This document shows positions 7,334 to 50,548 of a stretch of 64,000 nt of DNA, piece after piece. A program made the translations under genes and the position numbers. The notes beneath the pieces are model-generated. The model ran no database searches. It was given only the letters and a program-made list of their open reading frames with translations, and was not told the DNA's origin. Source of the DNA: Carnobacterium mobile DSM 4848 (GTDB taxonomy: Bacteria; Bacillota; Bacilli; Lactobacillales; Carnobacteriaceae); contig NZ_JQMR01000001.1 of NCBI RefSeq assembly GCF_000744825.1, positions 1 to 64,000 on the forward strand, read 5' to 3'. Within the stretch, counting starts at the first letter, position 1. Each line of letters opens with the position of its first letter.

Positions 7334-7615
7334 GAACCGTGGACGAATAGCCGCAAAGAAGCTGTGAGTTCGTCCCTAAAACAGGTTCCGTGGACGAATA
7401 GCCGCAAAGAAGCTGTGAGTTTGTCCCTAAAACAGGTTCCGCGGACGAATAGCCGCAAAGAAGCTGTGAGTTCGTCCCTAAAACAGGTTCCGTGGACGAA
7501 TAGCCGCAAAAAGCTGTGAGTTTGTCCCTAAAACAGGTTTCGTGGACGAATAGTCGTAAAAAATCCGTAAGTTCGTCCTTACTACCCGGTTTCATGAACA
7601 AATAATCGCCAATCG
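7334..7615 (+). repeat. Tandem array of 51-bp hairpin repeats
   Basis: Five units of 51 bp (one of 50) start at 7334, 7385, 7436, 7487 and 7537, with a decayed part-unit to about 7615. Each unit holds GGACGAA and TTCGTCC (sometimes TTTGTCC). These can pair within a unit across about 21 nt, or with the neighbouring unit across about 16 nt. Because 51 is divisible by 3, several frames stay open, but no ribosome site or protein character supports coding. The array ends about 25 bp from the 3' end of the tRNA-Arg gene. Confidence 0.9.
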
Positions 7616-7639: not shown

Positions 7640-7713
7640 TGGTCCTAGGGAGATTCGAACTCCCGGCCTAACGTTTAGGAAACGTTTGCTCTATCCAGCT
7701 GAGCTATAGAACC
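7640..7713 (-). tRNA. tRNA-Arg (anticodon CCT)
   Basis: Read on the minus strand, the acceptor stem GGTTCTA pairs with TAGGACC. The D arm is GCTC/GAGC, the anticodon stem is AACGT/ACGTT with loop TTCCTAA (anticodon CCT, reading AGG), and the T arm contains GTTCGAATC. The discriminator is A. CCA is not encoded and must be added after transcription. Confidence 0.97.
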
Positions 7714-26680: not shown

Positions 26681-28108
26681 ATGAACCTAGTCGATGAATT
26701 TAAAAAGGGAGTATTTTTTAGTGCTATTGGAAAATATTCAAATATTATCGTTCAACTCCTTGTCCAAGCAATTCTTTCAAGGTTATTGACTCCAAAAGAA
26801 TATGGTGTAGTTGCTGTAGTGAATGTGTTTTTAGTTTTTTTCCAGATGTTAGCTGATTTTGGAATTGGTCCAGCTATTATTCAGAATAAAAAGCTAGCTA
26901 AAAAAGAAATCAACAGTATTTTTATTTTTTCTTGTTACTTAGCTATTGTTTTAGGAATCGTTTTTATGTTGTTAGGCTATCCTATCAGCTTGTTCTATAA
27001 CGATGCTATCTACATACCTATCAGCTTAGTGTTGGGAGTGTGCGTGTTTTTTTATGGAGTTTTAGTAGTACCTCAAAATATGTTGTTAAGAGAAAAAAAC
27101 TTTATGACGGTTAATATGGTAACCGTTATTGCCAATGTACTTTCCGGAGTTATTTCAGTCGTATTAGCTGTTCTTGGGTTTAGCTATTATTCGCTGATTA
27201 TCAGCAATACGTTGAAAGCAGCATTTTTATTCTTTGTTTTTTATTTTAAAACACAGTTAAAAATCGGTTTTAAATTAGAGATGACACCGATAAAGAAAAT
27301 ATTTTCTTTTTCTAAAAATCAATTTGTTTTTAATTTCATCAATTATTTCTCAGGAAATTTAGATAAAATTTTAATTGGCAAGTATTTTTCAACCAGTTCT
27401 TTAGCATATTACGATAAGTCTTATCAATTATCCTTATATCCTAATCAAATACTGACAAATGTGATTTATCCGGTCATTCAGCCAATCATGTCAGACTTTG
27501 AAACCCGAATGGATAAAATCAAACAAGTTTATTTATTGTTGACTCGCTTTTTAGGCACAATTGGGTTATCTCTATCCGTATTTTTAATCTTTTCTTCAAA
27601 AGAAATCATTTTTTTCTTATTCGGTGATCAGTGGGGCGGAAGTGTCCCATCATTTCAAATTTTGGCTTTCTCTGTATGGATTCAATTGATATTAACCATT
27701 ACAGGAGCAATCTTTCAATCTGCTAATCGAACAGATTTATTATTGGTTTCAGGAGTTTTGACAGCAGTAACCAATATCACAGCAATGATTATCGGAATTG
27801 GCACAGGAAAGATTGAGTTTGTGGCTTTATTACTCGTCGTCGCATTTACAATTAATTTTATGCAGACCAACTATCTTTTAATGTATCGAATGTTTGATTC
27901 AAATTATTTGGAGTTTTTTAAGATTTTATTTAAGCCAACATTAATGGCTCTCTCTCAAATAATCGTATTTGCTATGCTCCCTGTGTTGCCATTTTCGAAT
28001 TTCATTGATTTAATTGTAAAAGGATTGATTTTTGTCCTAGTATTTGGAGCAGGATTGATAGCAACAGGTGAAATGAAAGTAATTAGAAGTATCATTATAA
28101 AGAAATAA
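26681..28108 (+). CDS. Polysaccharide repeat-unit flippase (block A)
   Basis: A 475-residue MOP-superfamily (Wzx/MviN-like) protein with about 12-14 transmembrane helices, which moves undecaprenyl-linked repeat units across the membrane. The N-terminal region (SRLLTPKEYGVVAVVNVFLV) is typical of WzxC-type flippases. It is a clear paralogue of the protein at 38953-40392, with long identical stretches such as GPAIIQ and KNQF-FNFINYFS. It lies within the glycosyltransferase operon with tight spacing. Confidence 0.94.
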   Translation: MNLVDEFKKGVFFSAIGKYSNIIVQLLVQAILSRLLTPKEYGVVAVVNVFLVFFQMLADFGIGPAIIQNKKLAKKEINSIFIFSCYLAIVLGIVFMLLGYPISLFYNDAIYIPISLVLGVCVFFYGVLVVPQNMLLREKNFMTVNMVTVIANVLSGVISVVLAVLGFSYYSLIISNTLKAAFLFFVFYFKTQLKIGFKLEMTPIKKIFSFSKNQFVFNFINYFSGNLDKILIGKYFSTSSLAYYDKSYQLSLYPNQILTNVIYPVIQPIMSDFETRMDKIKQVYLLLTRFLGTIGLSLSVFLIFSSKEIIFFLFGDQWGGSVPSFQILAFSVWIQLILTITGAIFQSANRTDLLLVSGVLTAVTNITAMIIGIGTGKIEFVALLLVVAFTINFMQTNYLLMYRMFDSNYLEFFKILFKPTLMALSQIIVFAMLPVLPFSNFIDLIVKGLIFVLVFGAGLIATGEMKVIRSIIIKK

Positions 28109-38952: not shown

Positions 38953-40392
38953 ATGAGCGTTGCAAATGAATTTAAAAAAGGAATCCTATATAGCGCCTTA
39001 GGAAAATATTCAAACGTAATCATTCAATTGTTAGTAACTGGGATTTTATCAAGACTGCTAACTCCGGCAGATTATGGAGTAGTAGCAGTAGTCAATGTAT
39101 TCCTAGTATTTTTCCAAATGCTTGCAGACTTTGGTATTGGACCAGCAATTATTCAATACAAAGATCTGAATGAAAAAGATATTGGAAGTATTTTTGCTTT
39201 TTCAATATATTTAGCTGTGACATTGGGATTGATTTTCATGTCATTAGGTATTCCAATCAGTAATTTTTATAGCAATGCAGTCTATCAACAAATATGTTTA
39301 ATTTTGGGAGTTTGTGTTATTTTCTATGCCTTATTAGTTGTGCCACAATCTATCCTTTTACGAGAGAAGAAGTTTTTTAATGTGAATATGGTAACCATTG
39401 CAGCTAACCTAGCCTCAGGTGTGTTGTCTATTGTTTTAGCGTTTGCTGGCTTTAGTTACTATGCATTGATTATTGGAAATATTGCAAAAGCTTTTGTTAT
39501 GTTTATTATCTTTTTTTATCAAGCTAAGTTGAAGGTAACATTTAAAATGTCTGGAGCACCTTTGAAGAAAATTTACAAATTTTCAAAAAATCAATTTGCA
39601 TTTAATTTCATCAATTACTTTTCTAGAAATTTAGATAAAATTTTAATTGGACGTTTTTTCAGTGAAAATGCTTTGGCTTTTTATGATAAAGCTTACCAGG
39701 TATCTCTTTATCCAAATCAAATTTTAACTAGTGTTATTACACCGGTAATTCAACCAATATTATCGGATTACGAAACAGAGAAATCTGTTATAAAAAAAGT
39801 ATATTTAAAAATTACTTTAGTACTAGGTACTTTAGGAGTTCCGATATCCGTTTTTCTATTCTTTTCTTCAACAGAAGTAGTGACTTTTTTATTTGGAAAT
39901 CAATGGGGTGGAAGCATTATAACTTTCCAAATATTAGCAGTCTCCGTTTGGGTACAAATGATATCAAGCAGTACAGGAGCTATTTTTCAGTCAGCTAATC
40001 GGACAGATCTACTGTTATTATCAGGTATTTTATCAACTGCATTAAACATTATAAGCATAGCGATCGGGATATTTCTTGGAAAAATCGAATATGTAGCAGC
40101 TATGATTGTGTTATCATTTACATTAAACTTCTTTATGAATAATTATTTGTTAATGTATCGTTTATTTAATGCAACGTTTAAAGAATATTTTAAGATTCTT
40201 ATTAAACCTATGATCATGGGATTACTTCAAATTATTTTCTTTTTGTTATTACCAGAATTACCTTTTTCCAATTTCTTTAACTTAGTGGTTAAAGGTATAG
40301 GTTTTATGGTTATCTTTTTAATGGGGATTTTGGTAACAGGTCAAGGAAAGTTGCTGAAAGAATTTCTCGGTAGACGTAATAAAAATAAATAA
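38953..40392 (+). CDS. Polysaccharide repeat-unit flippase (block B)
   Basis: A 479-residue MOP-family (Wzx) flippase with about 12-14 membrane helices. It is paralogous to the block A flippase: both begin with EFKKG, share SRLLTP-YGVVAVVNVFLVFF and LADFGIGPAIIQ, and end with similar helices. Two such flippases in one region suggest separate polymers or a duplication. It is the last gene of block B and is followed by a terminator. Confidence 0.94.
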   Translation: MSVANEFKKGILYSALGKYSNVIIQLLVTGILSRLLTPADYGVVAVVNVFLVFFQMLADFGIGPAIIQYKDLNEKDIGSIFAFSIYLAVTLGLIFMSLGIPISNFYSNAVYQQICLILGVCVIFYALLVVPQSILLREKKFFNVNMVTIAANLASGVLSIVLAFAGFSYYALIIGNIAKAFVMFIIFFYQAKLKVTFKMSGAPLKKIYKFSKNQFAFNFINYFSRNLDKILIGRFFSENALAFYDKAYQVSLYPNQILTSVITPVIQPILSDYETEKSVIKKVYLKITLVLGTLGVPISVFLFFSSTEVVTFLFGNQWGGSIITFQILAVSVWVQMISSSTGAIFQSANRTDLLLLSGILSTALNIISIAIGIFLGKIEYVAAMIVLSFTLNFFMNNYLLMYRLFNATFKEYFKILIKPMIMGLLQIIFFLLLPELPFSNFFNLVVKGIGFMVIFLMGILVTGQGKLLKEFLGRRNKNK

Positions 40393-40442: not shown

Positions 40443-40834
40443 TTTCTAAGATAAAGTAGTATCGACAGAGGTTAGAGTCTGTAGTACTATGAGATAGTAC
40501 ATAATTGAATTAGTAGCAAGGTAATGATAAATGAAAACAGGTAATTATATAAAAAATTCTTTCAAAGGACTGCCCAGTTGTCAATATAGATGTGAACGCT
40601 TTACTTAGAATAAATTATAATTTAGTGAGTTGGATCAGCAATTTGCCTATAAAGGAATTTGAGAAAATTCACATTAAAATTTCTGAATAGTTGAAAAAAT
40701 TAAAGGTAATAAAGTATTTTATTATTTAGACCTAGATATTGTTCAACCTAAATAAAAATTATAGTTGTTTTGTTATTGTTGGTATTATAGCCCAGTTAAC
40801 AATGGAAATAAATAAAAAGGAGATAAAGTCAAAA
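40443..40834 (+). other. Non-coding leader before the amidase gene
   Basis: A roughly 390-bp region without a supported gene. Two overlapping hairpins are possible. TAGTA...ACAGA pairs with TCTGT...TACTA (40457-40489), and GTACTAT pairs with ATAGTAC (40484-40500). They share bases and exclude each other. No clear promoter boxes are seen. Confidence 0.4.
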
Positions 40835-43800
40835 GTGAATAATAAAAAAGAATACTTGATAAAATGTATAACGGTTGCAATGACTATAACCTTGCTTTCG
40901 CCAATCGTTTTACCTACTGCAGTTATAGCTGCCGGCCCACCTGCTGCTTATTCAACTTCCGAAGTTTTAACAGAACAAAAAAACAAGAAGTCTGATAATA
41001 GCAATAAACAAGAAATCATTTCTGACGAACCATCACAAGAGAATGCAGTGTCTGAGTCACCAGAAGAAACTACTATTGATAGCACTTCTGAAAATCCTCC
41101 AGAAGAGGCAGAATCACAATCGGAAAACACGTCTGAAACTATCGGCTCTACTGAAGTGAAGACCGAAACAAATGAAAAAATAAAAGCAGCTTCTGAACAA
41201 CCTGTTCCAGAGGAAAAGAGCATGGCAGTACTTGCATATGACACAATTGTTTCTGATAAAAAAGTACATTATGATGCAATCGTTATTGCAGGGAGACATG
41301 ATTTATATACTAAACCAGGATTTACAGAAGGTGCAACGCAACTTGGAAAATCTGAACCTTATTTGAATCAGAAAATACAAATCATTCAAGAAGCAGTGAC
41401 AGATCGCGCAACATGGATTCAGTTTTCTATTAACGGACAAGACATCGGCTGGATGAATAAAATAGGGGCAGAAATTCAATATGATACGGTTACTGCTGCA
41501 GCCAAAACATCATATGAGGTCATTGTTTCTCAAGGACACCACGATATCTACACGTTGCCCGGCTATACAAAAGGGAACGAAATCATTACTAAGTCTTCAA
41601 CTTACTTAAATCAATCTCTTCAAGTTCTTGAAGAGAAAAAGACCAATCGTGCGACATGGTTATTAATTGCACAAAATGGCAGTGAGATTGGTTGGATGAA
41701 TAAAAACGGTGTGAAGATTCAAACGACTGAAATTACGAGCAGCAAAAAGACACATCTAGATGCTATTGTAAATAATGAGAACAAACAAATCTTTTCAGCA
41801 CCAGGCTACACCAACAATGCTGAAGTCGTTGCTCAATCTTCTAGTTACTCAGGGAAAAAAGTCCAAATTACCGAACAGAAACAAACTGCTGTAGGAACAA
41901 CATGGTTTTTAATTGTTCAAAACGGTAAAACAATTGGTTGGATTGAAAAAGACGGTGTGACGATTCAATACGATACAATCATCGAAACGCGAAATGTTCA
42001 TTATGATGCTTTAGTGTCCCAAGGAAGACACGATGTTTATTCAGCACCAGGCTACACACCTGATAATGAAATCTTGACGAAATCTAGTAGTTATTTAAAT
42101 AAAAAAGTACAAATCATTAAAGAAGTTGAAACCGATCGTGCAACGTGGGTACAGATATCAGTTGACGGAATAGCTGTTTGGATGAATAAAATAGGACTGA
42201 GAATAAAATATGATACCGTTCTATCTACTAAAGCAGTTGATTATTACGCACTGGTTCTCCATGATCGTCATGATATATACACTGTTCCTGGTTACACAAA
42301 AGGCAATCAACTTATAGAGAAATCAGCTGCATACTTAAATCAAGAAGTAAAAGTCATACAGGAAAAAGTAACCAATCGTGCGACTTGGGCTCAAATCGAA
42401 GTGAATGGAAAGACAGTAGGTTGGATGAATAAAGTTGGTTTAAAACCGATAGAAGATACAATTTTATCTAGTCAATCTGTCCATTACGAAGCGGTTCTCT
42501 CATCCGTAAAAGCAACAATTTTCACAGCACCTGGATACACTAAAAATGCAAAAGTTACTGGAGACACTTCTAAATATGTGAATCAAAAAGTCAAAATAAC
42601 AGAACAAAAAGTAACGAATCGAACCACTTGGTTTCTAGTATCTCTAATGAATGGAACATCCTTAGGCTGGATCGACAAAAATAAGTTAACTTTGCAATAT
42701 GATAAAGTGACTGAAAGCCGAGCTGTTCATTATGATGCTACAGTAGCAGAGGGTCGTCATGATATTTATACGATTCCGGGCTATACAGAAGGAAACCAAC
42801 TGATTACAAAGTCAGCAAGTTATTTAAATAAAGAAATACGTATTGTTCAAGAAAAAGTAACAGATCGAGCAATTTGGACGCAAATCTCTCTTAATGGGAA
42901 AGTCATCGGCTGGATGAATAAAAAAGGCTTAACGGTGCATTATGATACGATTTTATCCACTAAAACTGTTGATATAGACGCTAAAGTTGTTCAAGGGCAA
43001 CACGATATTTATACAGTTCCGGGATATACGAAAGATAATCGGGTAATTGATCGTTCTTCTACTTTTTTAAACCAAGAAGTTAAAATTGTTCAAGAAAAAG
43101 TAGCGAAAAATCGAGCTACTTGGGCTTTGATAACGATTAATGGGAAAACAATTGGCTGGATGAATAAAAATGGATTGGAAATTTTAAAAATAAATTATTC
43201 TGATATTGTTACATCCAGTCGTTTAGTTCACTATGATGCAACGGTCAGCAAAAGCAATCAACCCATCTACTCAGCACCTGGTTTTACCTCAGGTGCAGAT
43301 GAAGTGGGCAAGACTACTGACTATCTGAATAAATTAGTTCGTGTGACACAAGAAAAAGTAACAGATCGTGCTATATGGATGGAAATTTCTATTGATGGCA
43401 AAGCAATCGGCTGGATAGATAAAGCAGATCTGACATTGCAGTATGATGCTATTTTAAGAAGTAAAATGATTCACTATGATGCAATCATTACGGCAGGACA
43501 CCATGATGTTTACAGCGTGCCAGGTTATACGCAAAATAATGAAATTTTAACTAAATTAGCTCCATATGTAAATGAAAAGGTACAAATTATTGAAGAAAAA
43601 ATTACGAACCGTGCCACTTGGTTAAGATTTTCAGTAAATGGTAAAGTTATTGGTTGGATGAATAAAAATGGTGTAGCACTTCAACCGGATAAAATAAACA
43701 GTACAAATTCAGTTCACTTTGATGCAGTTATTACAGCTGGACACCATGATGTTTATACAGTACCGGGTTATACAATGGGAAATCAACTAATTGCAAAATC

Positions 43801-44734
43801 TTCTGCTTATATGAATAAGACAATTCAAGTCCTCAAACTGGCTCAAACAAATCGAGCAACATTTGCGCAGTTTGCTGTTGATGGAAAAACAATTGGCTGG
43901 ATGAATACAAATGGTATTAACTTTAAATACGATGCTGTAACTTCAACTAAAATAACAAATTATAATGCTAAAGTTATCCAAGGGCAACATGATGTTTATA
44001 CCGCTCCTGGATATACTCAAGGAAATACGATTATTGGAAAATCCAGTAGTTATCTAAACCAGTCAGTGAAGGTTTTACAAGAAAAAGTAACAAATCGCGC
44101 TACATGGGCGTTGATTGCAGTTAATGGCAAAACGATCGGCTGGATGAATAAAAAAGGATTAGACAGCATGTTGGTTTATTTGGACCCAGGACATGGCGGA
44201 GATGAGCCGGGTGCTATTTCAGGCGGAATCAAAGAAAAAGACATCAACTTAAAAGTGGCTTTAAAAATAGAAAAATTATTGGTTGCACATGGATACGATG
44301 TAGTCATGTCTAGAAAGACAGATACTTTTGTCAGCTTATCTAATCGGGCACAAGAAGCCAACAAAATAAAAGCTGATATATTTGTCAGTGTGCATCACAA
44401 TTCATTTGTTGGAACTTCTTACGGTATTGAAACCTATTCGTATAATCGACTTGGCAATTCGACTAATCCTATGTCAAACAATACTAAACGTTCATTAGAA
44501 AGCGGCAAACTTTCCAGTGCTGTTCATAAATCCTTATTAAGTCGTTCAGGAGCTGTAGATCGTGGAACTAGAACAGCTAACTTTCATGTTATCCGGGAAA
44601 CCAATATGCCCGCGATTTTAATGGAACTTGGTTATCTCGATAATGCGTCTGAACGCGCTAAATTAATAACTGATAGTTATCAAAATAAATTAGCACAAGG
44701 AGCTTACGAAGGGATCGTTCAATACTTTAAATAA
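40835..44734 (+). CDS. Secreted N-acetylmuramoyl-L-alanine amidase with 12 SH3/GW-like modules
   Basis: About 1299 residues from GTG 40835. The alternative ATG 40802 or TTG 40739 would add residues before the signal peptide. A signal peptide (hydrophobic core 11-31) precedes a Ser/Thr/Glu-rich linker, twelve wall-binding modules of about 81 residues, and a C-terminal Amidase_3 domain. Zinc ligands are His1120 (DPGHGG), Glu1134 (KEKD) and His1187 (SVHHN), with catalytic Glu1264 (ILMELGYLD). It should cleave the amide bond between muramic acid and the stem peptide at sites bound by the modules. AAGGAG is 12 bases before the GTG, slightly far. It stands between block B and the rhamnose operon. 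Confidence 0.92.
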   Translation: MNNKKEYLIKCITVAMTITLLSPIVLPTAVIAAGPPAAYSTSEVLTEQKNKKSDNSNKQEIISDEPSQENAVSESPEETTIDSTSENPPEEAESQSENTSETIGSTEVKTETNEKIKAASEQPVPEEKSMAVLAYDTIVSDKKVHYDAIVIAGRHDLYTKPGFTEGATQLGKSEPYLNQKIQIIQEAVTDRATWIQFSINGQDIGWMNKIGAEIQYDTVTAAAKTSYEVIVSQGHHDIYTLPGYTKGNEIITKSSTYLNQSLQVLEEKKTNRATWLLIAQNGSEIGWMNKNGVKIQTTEITSSKKTHLDAIVNNENKQIFSAPGYTNNAEVVAQSSSYSGKKVQITEQKQTAVGTTWFLIVQNGKTIGWIEKDGVTIQYDTIIETRNVHYDALVSQGRHDVYSAPGYTPDNEILTKSSSYLNKKVQIIKEVETDRATWVQISVDGIAVWMNKIGLRIKYDTVLSTKAVDYYALVLHDRHDIYTVPGYTKGNQLIEKSAAYLNQEVKVIQEKVTNRATWAQIEVNGKTVGWMNKVGLKPIEDTILSSQSVHYEAVLSSVKATIFTAPGYTKNAKVTGDTSKYVNQKVKITEQKVTNRTTWFLVSLMNGTSLGWIDKNKLTLQYDKVTESRAVHYDATVAEGRHDIYTIPGYTEGNQLITKSASYLNKEIRIVQEKVTDRAIWTQISLNGKVIGWMNKKGLTVHYDTILSTKTVDIDAKVVQGQHDIYTVPGYTKDNRVIDRSSTFLNQEVKIVQEKVAKNRATWALITINGKTIGWMNKNGLEILKINYSDIVTSSRLVHYDATVSKSNQPIYSAPGFTSGADEVGKTTDYLNKLVRVTQEKVTDRAIWMEISIDGKAIGWIDKADLTLQYDAILRSKMIHYDAIITAGHHDVYSVPGYTQNNEILTKLAPYVNEKVQIIEEKITNRATWLRFSVNGKVIGWMNKNGVALQPDKINSTNSVHFDAVITAGHHDVYTVPGYTMGNQLIAKSSAYMNKTIQVLKLAQTNRATFAQFAVDGKTIGWMNTNGINFKYDAVTSTKITNYNAKVIQGQHDVYTAPGYTQGNTIIGKSSSYLNQSVKVLQEKVTNRATWALIAVNGKTIGWMNKKGLDSMLVYLDPGHGGDEPGAISGGIKEKDINLKVALKIEKLLVAHGYDVVMSRKTDTFVSLSNRAQEANKIKADIFVSVHHNSFVGTSYGIETYSYNRLGNSTNPMSNNTKRSLESGKLSSAVHKSLLSRSGAVDRGTRTANFHVIRETNMPAILMELGYLDNASERAKLITDSYQNKLAQGAYEGIVQYFK
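41236..44164 (+). repeat. Twelve tandem GW/SH3-like coding modules with a three-module period
   Basis: Each module of about 243 bp ends in a GWMNK-type motif. Modules 3, 6 and 9 differ in the same way: they lack the (H/Q/R)HD(I/V)Y start, have IFSAPG/IFTAPG/IYSAPG instead, and end GWIEK or GWIDK. Modules 10-12 lack such a variant. Module 4 has lost the glycine (VWMNK). Confidence 0.85.
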
Positions 44735-44986: not shown

Positions 44987-45859
44987 ATGAAAGGTATTAT
45001 TTTAGCAGGAGGAAGCGGCACACGCTTATATCCTTTAACTAAAGCGGTATCGAAACAATTGATGCCGATCTATGATAAACCCATGATTTACTATCCAATG
45101 TCTATTTTAATGTTAGCAGGCATTAAAGATATTTTAATCATCTCAACACCAGAGGATACACCGCGATTTGAACAATTATTCGGTGATGGTTCAGAACTAG
45201 GTTTGAATCTAGAATATAAAGTTCAGAAAAGTCCAGATGGATTAGCACAAGCGTTTATTATCGGAGAAGATTTCATTGGAAAAGATTCCGTTTGTCTGAT
45301 TTTAGGTGATAATATTTATTATGGTGGTGGATTATCTAAAATGCTGCAAAGAGCTGCTCAAAAAGAGATTGGGGCAACCGTTTTCGGATACCATGTTAAT
45401 GACCCTGAACGCTTTGGAGTCGTTGAATTTGATGAAGAGATGAAAGCATTATCGATAGAAGAAAAACCTGAAGTGCCAAAAAGCAATTACGCTGTTACAG
45501 GATTGTATTTTTACGATAACGACGTTATTGAAATTGCTAAAAATATCGAGCCTTCTCCTCGCGGTGAATTAGAAATTACAGACGTGAATAAAGCATATTT
45601 AAAAGCTGGCAAATTAGACGTCGAAGTGATGGGTCGCGGATATGCTTGGTTAGATACTGGAACCCATGAATCACTTTTAGAAGCCGGTACATTTATTGAA
45701 ACGATTGAAAAGAGACAAAATCTTAAAGTAGCTTGTTTAGAAGAAATCGCCTATCGTATGGGATATATTTCACGGGCGCAGTTGATTAAGCTGGCGCAGC
45801 CATTGAAAAAAAATGAGTATGGTCAATATATGTTAAGATTAGCCACAACAGAATGGTAA
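44987..45859 (+). CDS. rfbA: Glucose-1-phosphate thymidylyltransferase
   Basis: A 290-residue enzyme of normal length. It makes dTDP-glucose from dTTP and glucose 1-phosphate, the first step of dTDP-L-rhamnose synthesis. The nucleotide-binding start [11 protein letters not shown], the KPMIYYP segment and the ILGDNIYYG metal site are intact. AAAAGGAG precedes the ATG. It is the first gene of the rfbACBD operon, 13 bp before rfbC. Confidence 0.97.
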
Positions 45860-45872
45860 GGAGTAGATAGAA

Positions 45873-46439
45873 ATGAATGTATTTGATACGCAATTACAGG
45901 ACGTAAAAATTATCGAAATGGATGTTTTTGGCGATCATCGCGGTTTTTTTACTGAGAGCTACACAAAAGAAAAATTCTTAGAAGCTGGTATCGCTATTGA
46001 TTTTATCCAAGACAACCATTCATTATCAGTAGAGCCGGGAGTTCTGAGAGGTATGCATTTTCAAACACCTGGAAAAGCTCAAACAAAATTAGTTCGTGTA
46101 ACGACTGGGGTTATTTATGATGTATTGGTCGATATTCGTGTCGGTTCTCCAACATATGGCAAGTGGGAAGGCTACCTTTTAAGTGAATATAATCATCGAC
46201 AATTATTAGTACCCCAAGGGTTTGCACATGGGTTCGTAACGTTAACTCCGAACTGTAATGTTCAATATAAAGTTGATGAATATTATTCGAAAGAACATGA
46301 TGGCGGGATTGCTTTTGATGATCCAGCAATTGGAATTGTGTGGCCGATGCCTATCAGTAAACTCGTGTTATCTGAAAAAGATCAACAACATCCGACATTA
46401 GCTGATTTTAACAGTCCATTTATCTGGGAGGAAAAATAA
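45873..46439 (+). CDS. rfbC: dTDP-4-dehydrorhamnose 3,5-epimerase
   Basis: A 188-residue cupin-fold epimerase. DHRGFFTESY, FIQDNHS, the catalytic-histidine segment RGMHFQ and the PQGFAHGF loop are present. It performs the third step of dTDP-rhamnose synthesis. The gene ends 2 bp before rfbB, showing tight operon packing. Confidence 0.97.
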   Translation: MNVFDTQLQDVKIIEMDVFGDHRGFFTESYTKEKFLEAGIAIDFIQDNHSLSVEPGVLRGMHFQTPGKAQTKLVRVTTGVIYDVLVDIRVGSPTYGKWEGYLLSEYNHRQLLVPQGFAHGFVTLTPNCNVQYKVDEYYSKEHDGGIAFDDPAIGIVWPMPISKLVLSEKDQQHPTLADFNSPFIWEEK

Positions 46440-46441
46440 CC

Positions 46442-47425
46442 ATGAATGTATTAGTAACAGGCGGAGCCGGCTTCATTGGCAGCAACTTTGTGCATTATAT
46501 TTTAAAAAATTATCCAGAGTACAAAGTAATCAATTTAGACTTATTGACTTATGCTGGAAACATCCATAATTTGGATGACATAATGGATAATCCAAATCAT
46601 GTGTTCGTACAAGGTAATATCACCAATAAAGAGTTGGTACGTCATTTAGTAAACGAACACGAAATTACTCATTTTGTAAATTTTGCGGCAGAATCTCACG
46701 TAGACCGCAGTATTTTAAATCCAGAAATTTTTGTGGAAACTAATATCCAAGGAACATTAGCTTTATTAAACGTGGCCAAAGAAATGAAGATTGAGAAATA
46801 CCTGCAAGTCTCAACAGATGAAGTCTATGGCTCATTAGGAGAAGAAGGGTACTTTACTGAAGAAACTCCGTTAGCGCCGAATAGTCCCTATTCTGCCAGT
46901 AAAACAGGAGCAGATTTGTTGGTTCGTTCTTACTATGAAACATATGGGATGAATGTGAATATTACCCGATGTTCAAACAATTACGGGCCATATCATTTTC
47001 CAGAAAAATTGATTCCGCTAATGATCACTAATGGAATGGATAATAAAGAATTACCGATTTATGGGGATGGCTTAAATGTGCGTGACTGGCTGCATGTACA
47101 AGATCATTGCCAAGCCATTGATTTAGTTTTGCATAAAGGATTAAAAGGCGAAGTATATAACGTTGGTGGACACAATGAACGAACTAATAATGAAATTGTG
47201 GATATCATTGTAGAAGAATTGGGATTATCACATGACCTAATCAAATATGTTGACGACCGGCTGGGTCATGATAAACGGTATGCCATTGATCCGACAAAAT
47301 TAGAAACTGAATTGGGCTGGAAACCAAAATACACTTTTGATACAGGAATTATGGAAACTATCAAATGGTACCAAGAAAACGAAAACTGGTGGCGTCCATT
47401 GAAAGAACGTGCTGGTTTAAACTAG
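46442..47425 (+). CDS. rfbB: dTDP-glucose 4,6-dehydratase
   Basis: A 327-residue extended short-chain dehydrogenase. The Rossmann motif GGAGFIGSNF is at the start, STDEVYG carries the catalytic Asp/Glu pair, and YSASKTGAD provides the YxxxK pair. It converts dTDP-glucose to the 4-keto-6-deoxy sugar. It follows rfbC almost directly; rfbD comes after a 70-bp spacer. Confidence 0.97.
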   Translation: MNVLVTGGAGFIGSNFVHYILKNYPEYKVINLDLLTYAGNIHNLDDIMDNPNHVFVQGNITNKELVRHLVNEHEITHFVNFAAESHVDRSILNPEIFVETNIQGTLALLNVAKEMKIEKYLQVSTDEVYGSLGEEGYFTEETPLAPNSPYSASKTGADLLVRSYYETYGMNVNITRCSNNYGPYHFPEKLIPLMITNGMDNKELPIYGDGLNVRDWLHVQDHCQAIDLVLHKGLKGEVYNVGGHNERTNNEIVDIIVEELGLSHDLIKYVDDRLGHDKRYAIDPTKLETELGWKPKYTFDTGIMETIKWYQENENWWRPLKERAGLN

Positions 47426-47495
47426 ATGATGGATTAAAAGATTTGTTTGAAAGCTAAGCAAGTCTTTTATCTTTACCAAAAATGGAGGTTTAAAT

Positions 47496-48338
47496 ATGAC
47501 GGCACTCATTACCGGAGGAACAGGACAATTGGGTTCTGAATTAAGAAAGTTATTAGACGAAAAACATGTAGACTATGTTTCAGTGGGCTCAAAAAATTTG
47601 GATATAACAAACAGTACAGCCGTAGACCAACTTATTCTTGAACTTAAGCCAGAAGTTATTTATCATTGCGCAGCTTACACAGCTGTAGATGCAGCAGAAG
47701 ATGAAGGTAAAGACATGAATCAGTTAGTAAATGTAACAGGAACAGAAAATGTTGCAAAAGCTGCCGAGTCTATAGGAGCGACACTTATTTATATTAGTAC
47801 AGATTATGTATTCGACGGAACAAGTCTAGGAGAGTACAAAGAAACCGATCAAACTAATCCAAAAAGCGAGTATGGAAGAGCAAAGCTAGCAGGTGAACAA
47901 ATCGTTCAGAGTTTAGTTACGAAGTATTATATTGTTCGGACGTCGTGGGTATTTGGCGAATTTGGAAATAACTTTGTGTTTACGATGCAAAGATTAGCTG
48001 ACTCTCATTCCACATTAACTGTCGTAGCAGATCAAGTTGGCAGACCAACATGGACACGAACACTAGCTGAATTCGTAAGCTATCTCGTTGAAAGAAAAGC
48101 AGATTATGGAATCTACCATTTGTCTAATGAAGATAGTTGTTCATGGTATGAGTTTGCAAAAGAAATTTTGAAAGATAAAGTTGTAAATGTTACTCCTGTT
48201 ACATCAGAAGATTATCCGCAAAAAGCGGATAGACCGAAATGTTCTATAATGGATTTGAGCAAGGCAGAAAAAACCGGGTTTGAAATACCTACATGGAAAG
48301 AAGCTCTTTTGTTATTTGAAGCATCCTTAAAATTGTAG
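47496..48338 (+). CDS. rfbD: dTDP-4-dehydrorhamnose reductase
   Basis: A 280-residue reductase making dTDP-L-rhamnose. The start GGTGQLGSEL is the Rossmann motif, STDYVFDG is the catalytic Thr region, and YGRAKLAGE carries the YxxxK pair. TGGAGG precedes the ATG. It completes a full four-gene set, so dTDP-rhamnose can be made from this locus alone. Confidence 0.97.
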   Translation: MTALITGGTGQLGSELRKLLDEKHVDYVSVGSKNLDITNSTAVDQLILELKPEVIYHCAAYTAVDAAEDEGKDMNQLVNVTGTENVAKAAESIGATLIYISTDYVFDGTSLGEYKETDQTNPKSEYGRAKLAGEQIVQSLVTKYYIVRTSWVFGEFGNNFVFTMQRLADSHSTLTVVADQVGRPTWTRTLAEFVSYLVERKADYGIYHLSNEDSCSWYEFAKEILKDKVVNVTPVTSEDYPQKADRPKCSIMDLSKAEKTGFEIPTWKEALLLFEASLKL

Positions 48339-48493: not shown

Positions 48494-48595
48494 TTTATTA
48501 GTTATAAACAGAACAAGTCACAAAAGTGTCATTAAATAACTAAATAGGTGTGTTATGATAATAAAGTATATTTTTTAAAAGGGAGAGGTAAAGAG

Positions 48596-50548
48596 TTGGA
48601 ATTTTTTTTTAATAAAGGAAGCAAAGTTTTAACAAGTATAGTTGTCACAACATTGCTGATACCAGTTGGTGCACCAACAACAGTTCTTGCAACAGACATA
48701 GACAATCAGGACAGAAAAGTTCCAGATACTCAGATTGAAACATATAGCTCAGAGACAGACAACACTGAAAGTTCAAATACATATAATACAGATGCAATTG
48801 AAGAAACACAAGAGTCAGAATTACAATCCGATGAAATAATGGATAGTAGCATAGAAGCAGACAATGATAGCAGCACAGAAACAGACAAAGTGAGCGAAGA
48901 AACAAATGAATCTTCCAAAGATAGCTCTGAAAGTGAGAGCATAGTAGAAAGCGAAGAAGTCATAGGAGAAACTGAAAAGGAAGTTTCTATAGATGCGGAA
49001 GATGAAGTAGAAGACAATACAGTGACAGAACCTGAAACAAGCTCTGAAAATCCGGCTTACGATGATAATACGATTTTTTCACTTGAAAAAAATCGAGAAA
49101 CTGCATTGGAAATTATGGAAAGTGAGATAAATGGTGTTTCGTTTTTCAGATCAAGAGCAGTTTCTTCTACAACTGCATTTATTAATAGTATTTCTTCATA
49201 TGCCGTTTCACTCGGTCAAGAGTATAACATTTACACGTCAGTAATGATTGCTCAAGCTATTTTAGAAAGTGCATCGGGTAACAGCGCTCTTGCTTCAGCG
49301 CCAAATTATAATTTATTTGGAATCAAAGGAAGTTACAAAGGAAACAGTGTAGCTTATAAAACATCAGAGTGGAGCGAGAGCAAAGGCTGGTATACTGTTA
49401 CTGCGAATTTCAGAAAGTATCCTTCTTACCGTGAGTCATTAGAAGATAATGCAAAGTTATTGAGAAATGGTTTAACTTGGAATAAAGAAAATTACTCAGG
49501 CACGTGGAGAGAAAACGCGTCGAACTATAAAGAAGCGACAGCAGGATTAGTAAAAGGTGGATACGCAACTGATCCGAGCTATGCTGCAAGTTTAAATAAC
49601 ATTATTGCAAACTATAATTTAACTCAATACGACAATGTACCAACAGTATCCTATTCTACTCACATTCAATCGAAAGGTTGGTTGCCTGTTGTCAAAGATG
49701 GAAAAGGCAGTGGTACGACAAAACAAAATAAACGTATGGAAGCTATTAAGTTATCAATTCAAAATATTGATCATTTAGGCATTCAATACAGTACCCATGT
49801 TCAATCAAAAGGTTGGACAAGTTGGAAATCAGATGGCGAAGTATCTGGGACCACTAGAGAAAATAAACGTCTTGAAGCCATTAAAATTCAATTAACGGAT
49901 ACTCAAGCAAGTAATTTTGATGTTTACTACCGTGTTCATGCACAAAGTTATGGCTGGTTAGGATGGGCAAAAAATGGAACACCTGCTGGAACTGAAGGTC
50001 TTTCTAAACGTTTAGAGGCTATTGAAGTAGTTGTTGTCAAAAAAGGATCATCAGCTCCATCTGGAACAAGTCAAGCTGCTTTTATTGAAAAAACGCCAAG
50101 TATTAATTACACAACTCATGTTCAAACAAATGGCTGGCAAAGTAAAGTATCTAATGGTAAAGGTAGTGGAACAACAAAACAGAACAAAAGACTTGAAGGA
50201 ATAAAAATTGATTTAAGTGACTTGTCTTGTGCCGGAGGAATACAGTATCGGACACATGTGCAAAGTTTAGGTTGGCAAAATTGGGCAGCTAATGGAGCTT
50301 TAAGCGGAACTATGGGTATGGCAAAACGTTTAGAAGCTATCCAAATTCAATTAACTGGCGAAATAACTAATAAATACGATGTCTATTATCGTGTTCATGC
50401 TCAAAGTTACGGTTGGTTAGGATGGGCAAAAAATGGTGAATCTGCCGGAACAGAAGGTAAAGCTAAACGCTTAGAAGCAATTGAAATTAAATTAGTTAAA
50501 AAAGGCGGAGCTGCGCCAGGAAGTACAAATAAAGCTCTCGTGAGATAG
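48596..50548 (+). CDS. Secreted N-acetylglucosaminidase with six ChW repeats
   Basis: A 650-residue protein from TTG 48596, with GAGAGG upstream; an in-frame GTG at 48548 lacks a site. A signal peptide (core about 11-30) leads to a long acidic Ser/Thr/Glu/Asp linker, then a GH73-type glucosaminidase domain with the predicted catalytic Glu224 in AQAILESASG and NYNLFGIKG. The C-terminal third holds six ChW (clostridial hydrophobic, conserved Trp) repeats. It should cut the peptidoglycan glycan chain, with the ChW repeats binding the wall or a surface partner. It is the second wall hydrolase in this polysaccharide region. Confidence 0.92.
   Translation: MEFFFNKGSKVLTSIVVTTLLIPVGAPTTVLATDIDNQDRKVPDTQIETYSSETDNTESSNTYNTDAIEETQESELQSDEIMDSSIEADNDSSTETDKVSEETNESSKDSSESESIVESEEVIGETEKEVSIDAEDEVEDNTVTEPETSSENPAYDDNTIFSLEKNRETALEIMESEINGVSFFRSRAVSSTTAFINSISSYAVSLGQEYNIYTSVMIAQAILESASGNSALASAPNYNLFGIKGSYKGNSVAYKTSEWSESKGWYTVTANFRKYPSYRESLEDNAKLLRNGLTWNKENYSGTWRENASNYKEATAGLVKGGYATDPSYAASLNNIIANYNLTQYDNVPTVSYSTHIQSKGWLPVVKDGKGSGTTKQNKRMEAIKLSIQNIDHLGIQYSTHVQSKGWTSWKSDGEVSGTTRENKRLEAIKIQLTDTQASNFDVYYRVHAQSYGWLGWAKNGTPAGTEGLSKRLEAIEVVVVKKGSSAPSGTSQAAFIEKTPSINYTTHVQTNGWQSKVSNGKGSGTTKQNKRLEGIKIDLSDLSCAGGIQYRTHVQSLGWQNWAANGALSGTMGMAKRLEAIQIQLTGEITNKYDVYYRVHAQSYGWLGWAKNGESAGTEGKAKRLEAIEIKLVKKGGAAPGSTNKALVR
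49650..50523 (+). repeat. Six ChW coding repeats in two triads
   Basis: Repeats start THIQSKGW, THVQSKGW, RVHAQSYGW, THVQTNGW, THVQSLGW and RVHAQSYGW. Repeat 4 matches 1, 5 matches 2, and 6 matches 3 almost exactly (YGWLGWAKNG). The order shows a triad duplication. Confidence 0.85.

Follow-up and report, generated by a model that had tools for sequence, protein, structure and literature searches.

The window analysed here, a stretch of 64,000 nucleotides at the start of contig NZ_JQMR01000001.1 of Carnobacterium mobile DSM 4848, carries a gene for a GW-module N-acetylmuramoyl-L-alanine amidase (40739..44734) whose twelve GW modules follow a three-module order. The amidase gene and its neighbours between 38953 and 50548 lie on the forward strand. 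The open reading frame opens at TTG 40739, although GTG 40835 is probably the real start, as judged from an alignment by eye with the start in relatives. The product begins with a signal-peptide-like sequence followed by an acidic Ser/Glu-rich linker (40835..41233, read from the sequence), continues with the array of twelve GW modules (PF13457; 41234-44164), each some 81 residues long, and ends with a C-terminal Amidase_3 catalytic domain (PF01520), which occupies 44174..44734 together with the stop codon and was assigned by domain match (1.9e-53, near full length at profile positions 1-173 of 174). The first-pass annotation of this DNA had placed a twelve-module array at 41236-44164, and its extent is thereby confirmed. 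All 12 modules exceed the PF13457 cut-off of 21 bits, with scores of 57-69 bits, and the NF033202 cut-off is also passed. The Gly-Trp dipeptide is present in 11 of the 12 modules; module 4 has VW. The amidase is the sole GW protein of the C. mobile genome at E<=0.001. Its parts are well known and their arrangement is unusual; the protein is predicted to be a secreted and active autolysin.

Three classes of module, A, B and C, seem to be present in the array, which reads A-B-C-A-B-C-A-B-C-A-A'-B, where A' is an extra A-like module. Two relatives in another genus (G008 and G011) have 10 modules each in the order C-A-B-C-A-B-C-A-A'-B, so that the three proteins together provide 32 modules. Class A in the window comprises module 1 (41234..41476; HDLY), placed by its motifs and the class test, module 4 (41966..42205), placed by its motifs and with the G of the GW lost (VWMNK), and modules 7 (42695..42937) and 10 (43439..43681), which are A by position and have a B module as best match in both relatives. 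Class B comprises module 2 (41477..41719) and module 8 (42938..43195), the latter with the longest linker ahead of the next C, both placed by motifs and comparison with the relatives, module 5 (42206..42448), which is B by position and has an A module as best match in both relatives, and module 12 (43925..44164), which groups in the module tree with the modules that end the G008 and G011 arrays (99/91). Class C comprises module 3 (41720..41965; IFSAPG, GWIEK) and module 6 (42449..42694; IFTAPG, GWIDK), both of which stand apart from the other C modules in a tree computed without 17 columns (the class-marking ones, the linker and their neighbours), and module 9 (43196..43438; IYSAPG, GWIDK), placed by motifs and trees. 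Module 11 (43682..43924; GWMNT) is the A' module by its motifs and by comparison with the relatives. The A' modules of G008 and G011 (module 9 of loci L131 and L134) have likewise lost the Gly of GW and read IWMN and VWMN.

The first-pass annotation had described modules 3, 6 and 9 as a distinct form, and this holds: HD[LIV]Y is found in 0/3 of them and in 9/9 of the others, and they end in GWIEK, GWIDK and GWIDK. The IFSAPG or IFTAPG start that it gave them fits modules 3 and 6 but not module 9, which has IYSAPG. The HD(I/V)Y and GWMNK that it gave the others is right as far as HD[LIV]Y and WMN go (9/9) and too narrow for module 1 (HDLY), module 4 (VWMNK) and module 11 (GWMNT). Its two module types are thus correct in making a class of modules 3, 6 and 9, while the remainder seems to divide into A and B. 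Over all 32 modules HD[LIV]Y is present in class A in 10/10, class B in 10/10, A' in 3/3 and class C in 0/9, and a linker [YF]D stands at the module entry in 9/10, 10/10, 2/3 and 0/9, respectively. The class-marking positions are module columns 22-23, 34, 39, 77-78 and 81. The GW end of class C resembles that of ordinary GW modules, GW[IV]D being common in the other arrays examined; it is the HD.Y/GWMN modules, rather than C, that are the unusual ones.

The three-module higher-order repeat is supported by a test that uses position only. The partition {1,4,7}{2,5,8}{3,6,9} has the highest mean identity among the 280 splits of modules 1-9 into triples, in protein as well as in DNA, and this test is free of label-setting bias. 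When modules 3, 6 and 9 are excluded, {1,4,7}{2,5,8} is the best of 10 splits. Over all 12 modules the period-3 signal is weaker (p 0.011 for amino acids, p 0.007 in a second amino acid run, and p 0.11 for nucleotides), because modules 10-12 break the phase. Within the window, modules of the same class are 55.1% identical vs 44.5% for modules of different classes, and between the window and G008/G011 the values are 53.9% vs 44.4%; in both comparisons 0/5000 label shuffles were as high, although all shuffle counts are optimistic, since the labels were set from position and motifs after the identities had been seen and A' was left out. Inside G008 and G011, 16/5000 and 13/5000 shuffles were as high. 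For A vs B alone the window labelling is the best of 35 splits and was equalled by 125/5000 shuffles, the floor for 35 splits; the counts were 514/5000 and 506/5000 in G008 and G011, the floor for ten splits, and 3/5000 between the genera. With the 17 columns removed the class test gave 5/5000 in the window, 0/5000 between the genera, and 10/5000 for A vs B between the genera. Chance as the source of the order was rejected on the class shuffles and the position-only partition test. A period of 2 was rejected for the window array (p 0.49 vs p 0.007 for period 3), and a period of 4 was rejected in the same period test.

The relatives start with C, the entry to C is without [YF]D and the joints from B into C vary in length; the unit is therefore best written C-A-B. 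In the three proteins 5/7 of the B-into-C joints exceed 82 residues between PG marks (83-86), and no other joint does. The window has two further modules (A-B) at the N-terminal end compared with G008 and G011, and all three arrays share the tail C-A-A'-B. The idea that the last block lost or never had the variant form is not borne out: the last block is C9-A10-A'11-B12, matching C7-A8-A'9-B10 in G008 and G011. Window module 11 is nearer to the A modules of the relatives (54.1%) than to their A' (47.5%).

A module phylogeny had been named beforehand as the check on the grouping of modules 3, 6 and 9. A quick tree was built from 79 modules, the 32 and 47 of an outgroup, which come from nine of the 37 arrays described below. 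With all columns used, modules 3, 6 and 9 and the six C modules of the relatives form one branch in it (Shimodaira-Hasegawa approximate likelihood ratio test, SH-aLRT, 99), and all 32 modules also form one branch (89). In the tree of the 32 modules alone, window module 12 groups with the last module of the relatives, module 2 with their module 3 (87/89), and module 9 among their C modules (90/83), while modules 3 and 6, both long, lie outside. The check stands less firmly with the 17 columns removed: 7/9 C modules then come together, weakly (51/84), and modules 3 and 6 do not join, although a single C clade is not rejected (approximately unbiased test, p-AU 0.31). Modules 3, 6 and 9 share 40-44% amino acid identity, which puts them at rank 155 among the 220 triples; what unites them is mostly their difference from the other modules.

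The copies appear to be old. At shared residues the fraction of identical codons in the window is 0.46-0.52 at lags of 1-7 modules vs 0.46-0.48 expected from codon usage, and 0.50 vs 0.47 at lag 3. The agreement is barely above the expectation, from which the blocks are judged old; a recent origin by duplication of blocks, or recent gene conversion, was rejected for this array. The values for G011 are 0.45-0.54 (expected 0.48-0.49), and those for G008 are slightly above expectation at 0.53-0.63 (expected 0.50-0.53). Congeners of C. mobile, in contrast, show the signature of recent two-module copying, with a lag-2 codon agreement of 0.82 in G001, 0.93 in G003 and 0.80 in G002. The array of G003 (locus L130, 2992-5151) consists of a two-module 465-bp unit repeated five times, three copies of which are 94% DNA-identical to the reference copy.

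The family sample consisted of 18 genomes, 15 of which, G008 and G011 among them, have GW modules at E<=0.001; the window's genus was sampled with 5 genomes and the other genus with 6 (with G008, G011 and a third member, G012). The trio of modules 3-5 matches G008 and G011 with 54% and 53% identity (274 and 267 bits). In the order sample of 395 genomes the next genome scores 154 bits, and 20/395 genomes, the window included, match at E<=1e-30. In the class sample of 398 genomes, an even draw in which G008 and G011 are not reported, the only match at E<=1e-30 (1/398) is the window itself. Plasmid matches are limited to 3 Listeria records at 29-32% identity, and 226 phage records match the amidase domain, all below 60% identity. 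An amidase-domain scan of the genome contigs gave 53 loci, of which L009 and L010 alone were used for an open reading frame scan and the amidase tree; the former found no GW match in either. For comparison of periods, 37 arrays from 36 loci were hand-picked from the matches, with long genes favored and with arrays of fewer than 6 modules and module matches of 46 residues or less dropped, so that fractions among them are not estimates of prevalence. At an uncorrected p<0.05, period 2 is found in 10 of these arrays and period 3 in three, those of the window, G008 and G011. These three have HD[LIV]Y in 23/32 modules, against 0/258 modules in the 34 other arrays. Loci L170 and L179 come close to period 3 (p 0.063 and 0.062), and neither has HD[LIV]Y or GWMN. 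A thin literature search found no published higher-order unit in GW arrays.

A predicted structure of modules 5-8 (B-C-A-B) is confident throughout, with a mean predicted local distance difference test score (pLDDT) of 94.9, a predicted template modelling score (pTM) of 0.77, and no residue below 70. The best structural matches to this model are Lmo1076 (5jqc; Z 16.1, root mean square deviation 14.0, 239 residues aligned), InlB (1m9s; Z 15.2, 13.2, 227 residues) and the AtlE repeats (4epc; Z 11.0, 10.6, 145 residues), so that the modelled modules have the SH3-like fold of InlB and Auto. On the model, the residues that mark the classes map to the turn that follows GW and, for HD.Y, to the opening short strand, places that would correspond to two edges of the SH3 ligand groove.

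The amidase gene is preceded by a gene for a flippase-like polysaccharide transporter (38953..40392), which is kept in G008 and G011, and followed by the dTDP-L-rhamnose genes rmlA (44987), rmlC (45873), rmlB (46442) and rmlD (47496), each above its NCBIfam cut-off and together spanning 44987..48338. A gene for a glucosaminidase with six ChW repeats (48548..50548) ends the shared block. The order flippase, amidase, rmlA, rmlC, rmlB, rmlD, ChW glucosaminidase is common to the window, G008 and G011, and the Rml proteins of the window are 75-93% identical to those of the two relatives; the glucosaminidase match in G008 has one in-frame stop. At E<=1e-30, rmlD is found only in the window among the genomes of its genus, and in G008, G011 and G012 of the other genus, where that of G012 lies about 19 kb from its GW array. 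In congener G002 an rmlB relative (85%) lies near the GW gene. A second flippase-like transporter gene lies in the same cluster (26681-28108) and could point to either a composite polymer locus or two separate ones.

The amidase is 71% and 70% identical to that of G008 and G011, 63%, 54% and 54% to that of congeners G001, G002 and G003, and 52% to that of G014. The nearby LCP ligase is 86, 80 and 77% identical to those of the congeners and 68% identical to those of both G008 and G011. By raw count, 12/15 GW-bearing family genomes have the GW array and the closest LCP ligase within 16 kb of each other; of the other three, one has them far apart and two have them on different contigs. The amidase tree places the window, G008 and G011 on one side of a weakly supported branch (64/19). 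A grouping of the amidase with the congeners alone was rejected (p-AU 0.001), with the outgroup scattered. Transfer between genera is likely from these comparisons. The locus looks like a mosaic, for which cassette exchange would be the simplest account; old paralogy followed by loss is a possible alternative. The proteins of G001, G002, G003 and G014 share with that of the window the C-terminal Amidase_3, a GW array and a place near the same LCP ligase gene. They differ in having a fused glucosaminidase-like region and no HD[LIV]Y modules, and the arrays of G001-G003 have period 2 with recent copies and that of G014 no period, unlike the period 3 of the window. The ChW glucosaminidase of the window (48548-50548) is a separate protein, where the congeners have the glucosaminidase-like region fused to the GW amidase.

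Listeria Ami, Auto, IspC, LygA and InlB are similar in that the protein, in many cases a peptidoglycan hydrolase, is kept at the wall by its GW array; those named have 3 to 8 modules, whereas the window protein has 12, in a three-class order and with a C-terminal Amidase_3. The genes aut, ispC and lygA were described as adjoining wall teichoic acid glycosylation clusters, and the number of GW modules as affecting retention in the wall (PMC10335673, PMC10714868). The amidase gene has the same kind of position, between the flippase gene and rmlACBD, which serve a wall polymer or the sugars in it; the locus product is only putatively teichoic acid. In staphylococcal Atl and AtlE, paired SH3-like units (R1ab, R2ab, R3ab) target an amidase (PMC7679415); they differ from the window protein in a unit of two rather than three and in an amidase domain that precedes the repeats.

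The preferred reading, with a probability of roughly 0.55, is that the protein is an autolysin fixed in the wall by an array that binds the polymer produced by the surrounding locus, and that selection keeps its module classes apart. The Amidase_3 domain would be held in the wall by the long GW array. The array would have grown long ago by copying of a C-A-B unit, before the versions of the two genera parted, with an extra A' in the last unit; since then the synonymous sites of the copies would have come close to saturation, with the residues telling C from A and B unchanged. With codons near saturation and these residues fixed, selection appears to keep the module types in order. The likely ligand, by analogy, would be the wall glycopolymer made by the surrounding locus with its rhamnose genes, and many weak contacts between modules and polymer would give tight, polymer-specific retention, with C perhaps differing from A and B in its contact with the ligand. 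In Listeria, rhamnose on wall teichoic acid was needed for the proper retention of Ami and InlB, and GW modules sufficed for rhamnose-dependent retention, though not in every GW protein (PMC7238011); LygA and Auto were reported to bind galactosylated polymer, with lower retention when modules were fewer (PMC10335673). By analogy with this precedent, the most likely role of the window array is to tie the amidase to the polymer that the surrounding locus makes. The same source gives module number as the main variable for retention and says that composition also matters (PMC10335673). A module order kept across two genera despite old copies, beside rhamnose-polymer genes, makes the window array a testable case in which composition, not length alone, would help decide which polymer is gripped.

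Several results weigh against this reading. With the 17 columns removed, the period-3 partition of modules 1-9 falls to rank 7/280. In G008, 4/10 modules have their expected partner as best match. The class of the best match agrees for 7/11 modules in G008 and 8/11 in G011 (module 11 excluded), and in both relatives modules 5, 7 and 10 go to A instead of B or to B instead of A. The SH3 groove of the InlB GW modules is reportedly blocked. In the literature, lipoteichoic acid is named as a GW-module ligand and IspC was reported to bind it (PMC10714868), the Atl repeats are described as binding lipoteichoic acid as well, with wall teichoic acid repelling them (PMC7679415), and Auto binds galactosylated, not rhamnosylated, polymer despite the adjoining wall teichoic acid glycosylation cluster (PMC10335673); the case of Auto means that adjacency does not fix the ligand.

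The C-A-B order could also be a mere footprint of old block copying, with all classes equivalent in their job. Copying of units is common, as the ten period-2 arrays and the nearly identical copies in some of them attest, most columns show no class separation, and A and B are only weakly distinct. Against this, the codons of the window array come close to saturation at all lags, whereas the HD.Y and GW[IV] marks that tell C from A and B hold in 32/32 modules of two genera. This suggests selection without proving it: the modules of G008 and G011 are 75-88% alike, and the 32 are not independent cases. A purely neutral origin is considered doubtful. It is unlikely, in turn, that C is a non-binding spacer or hinge between A-B pairs, which would be the binding units like the paired repeats of Atl; the latter are described as joined by flexible linkers (PMC7679415). 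The length variation confined to B-into-C joints, the C entry without [YF]D, and the greater frequency of period 2 as a higher-order unit among the examined arrays agree with such a role, but the B-C-A-B model is confident throughout and C keeps the full fold in it, although the modelled B-C joint is short, unlike the long 8-9 joint. The spacer reading can hold alongside the proposed ligand, so that the odds given to the alternatives do not add up to one.

Separate shaping of every third module by positional selection, with no block copying, would explain why window modules 3 and 6 stand apart from the other C modules once the 17 columns are removed. The tendency of A and B to recur in order as well, the survival of the class test without those columns, and the single branch of nine C modules with all columns make this account very improbable. 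The module types may have distinct wall partners, as suggested by the first-pass annotation. An extension of the preferred reading, rated as a long shot, is that the C-A-B trio serves as a reading frame for the repeating sugars of the polymer, each class gripping a different residue of a rhamnose-containing unit with the array in register; the array and the cluster would then be an allelic polymer-plus-hydrolase cassette exchanged between genera.

Elsewhere in the window, a 51-bp unit is repeated 4.8 times at 7337-7578 on the forward strand, beside a tRNA gene on the reverse strand (7640-7713). A hairpin fold is possible for the unit (GGACGAA...TTCGTCC), with a z of -3.35 as forward-strand RNA. 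Its 24-base core, with up to 3 mismatches allowed, is found in 1/18 family genomes, that of C. mobile itself.

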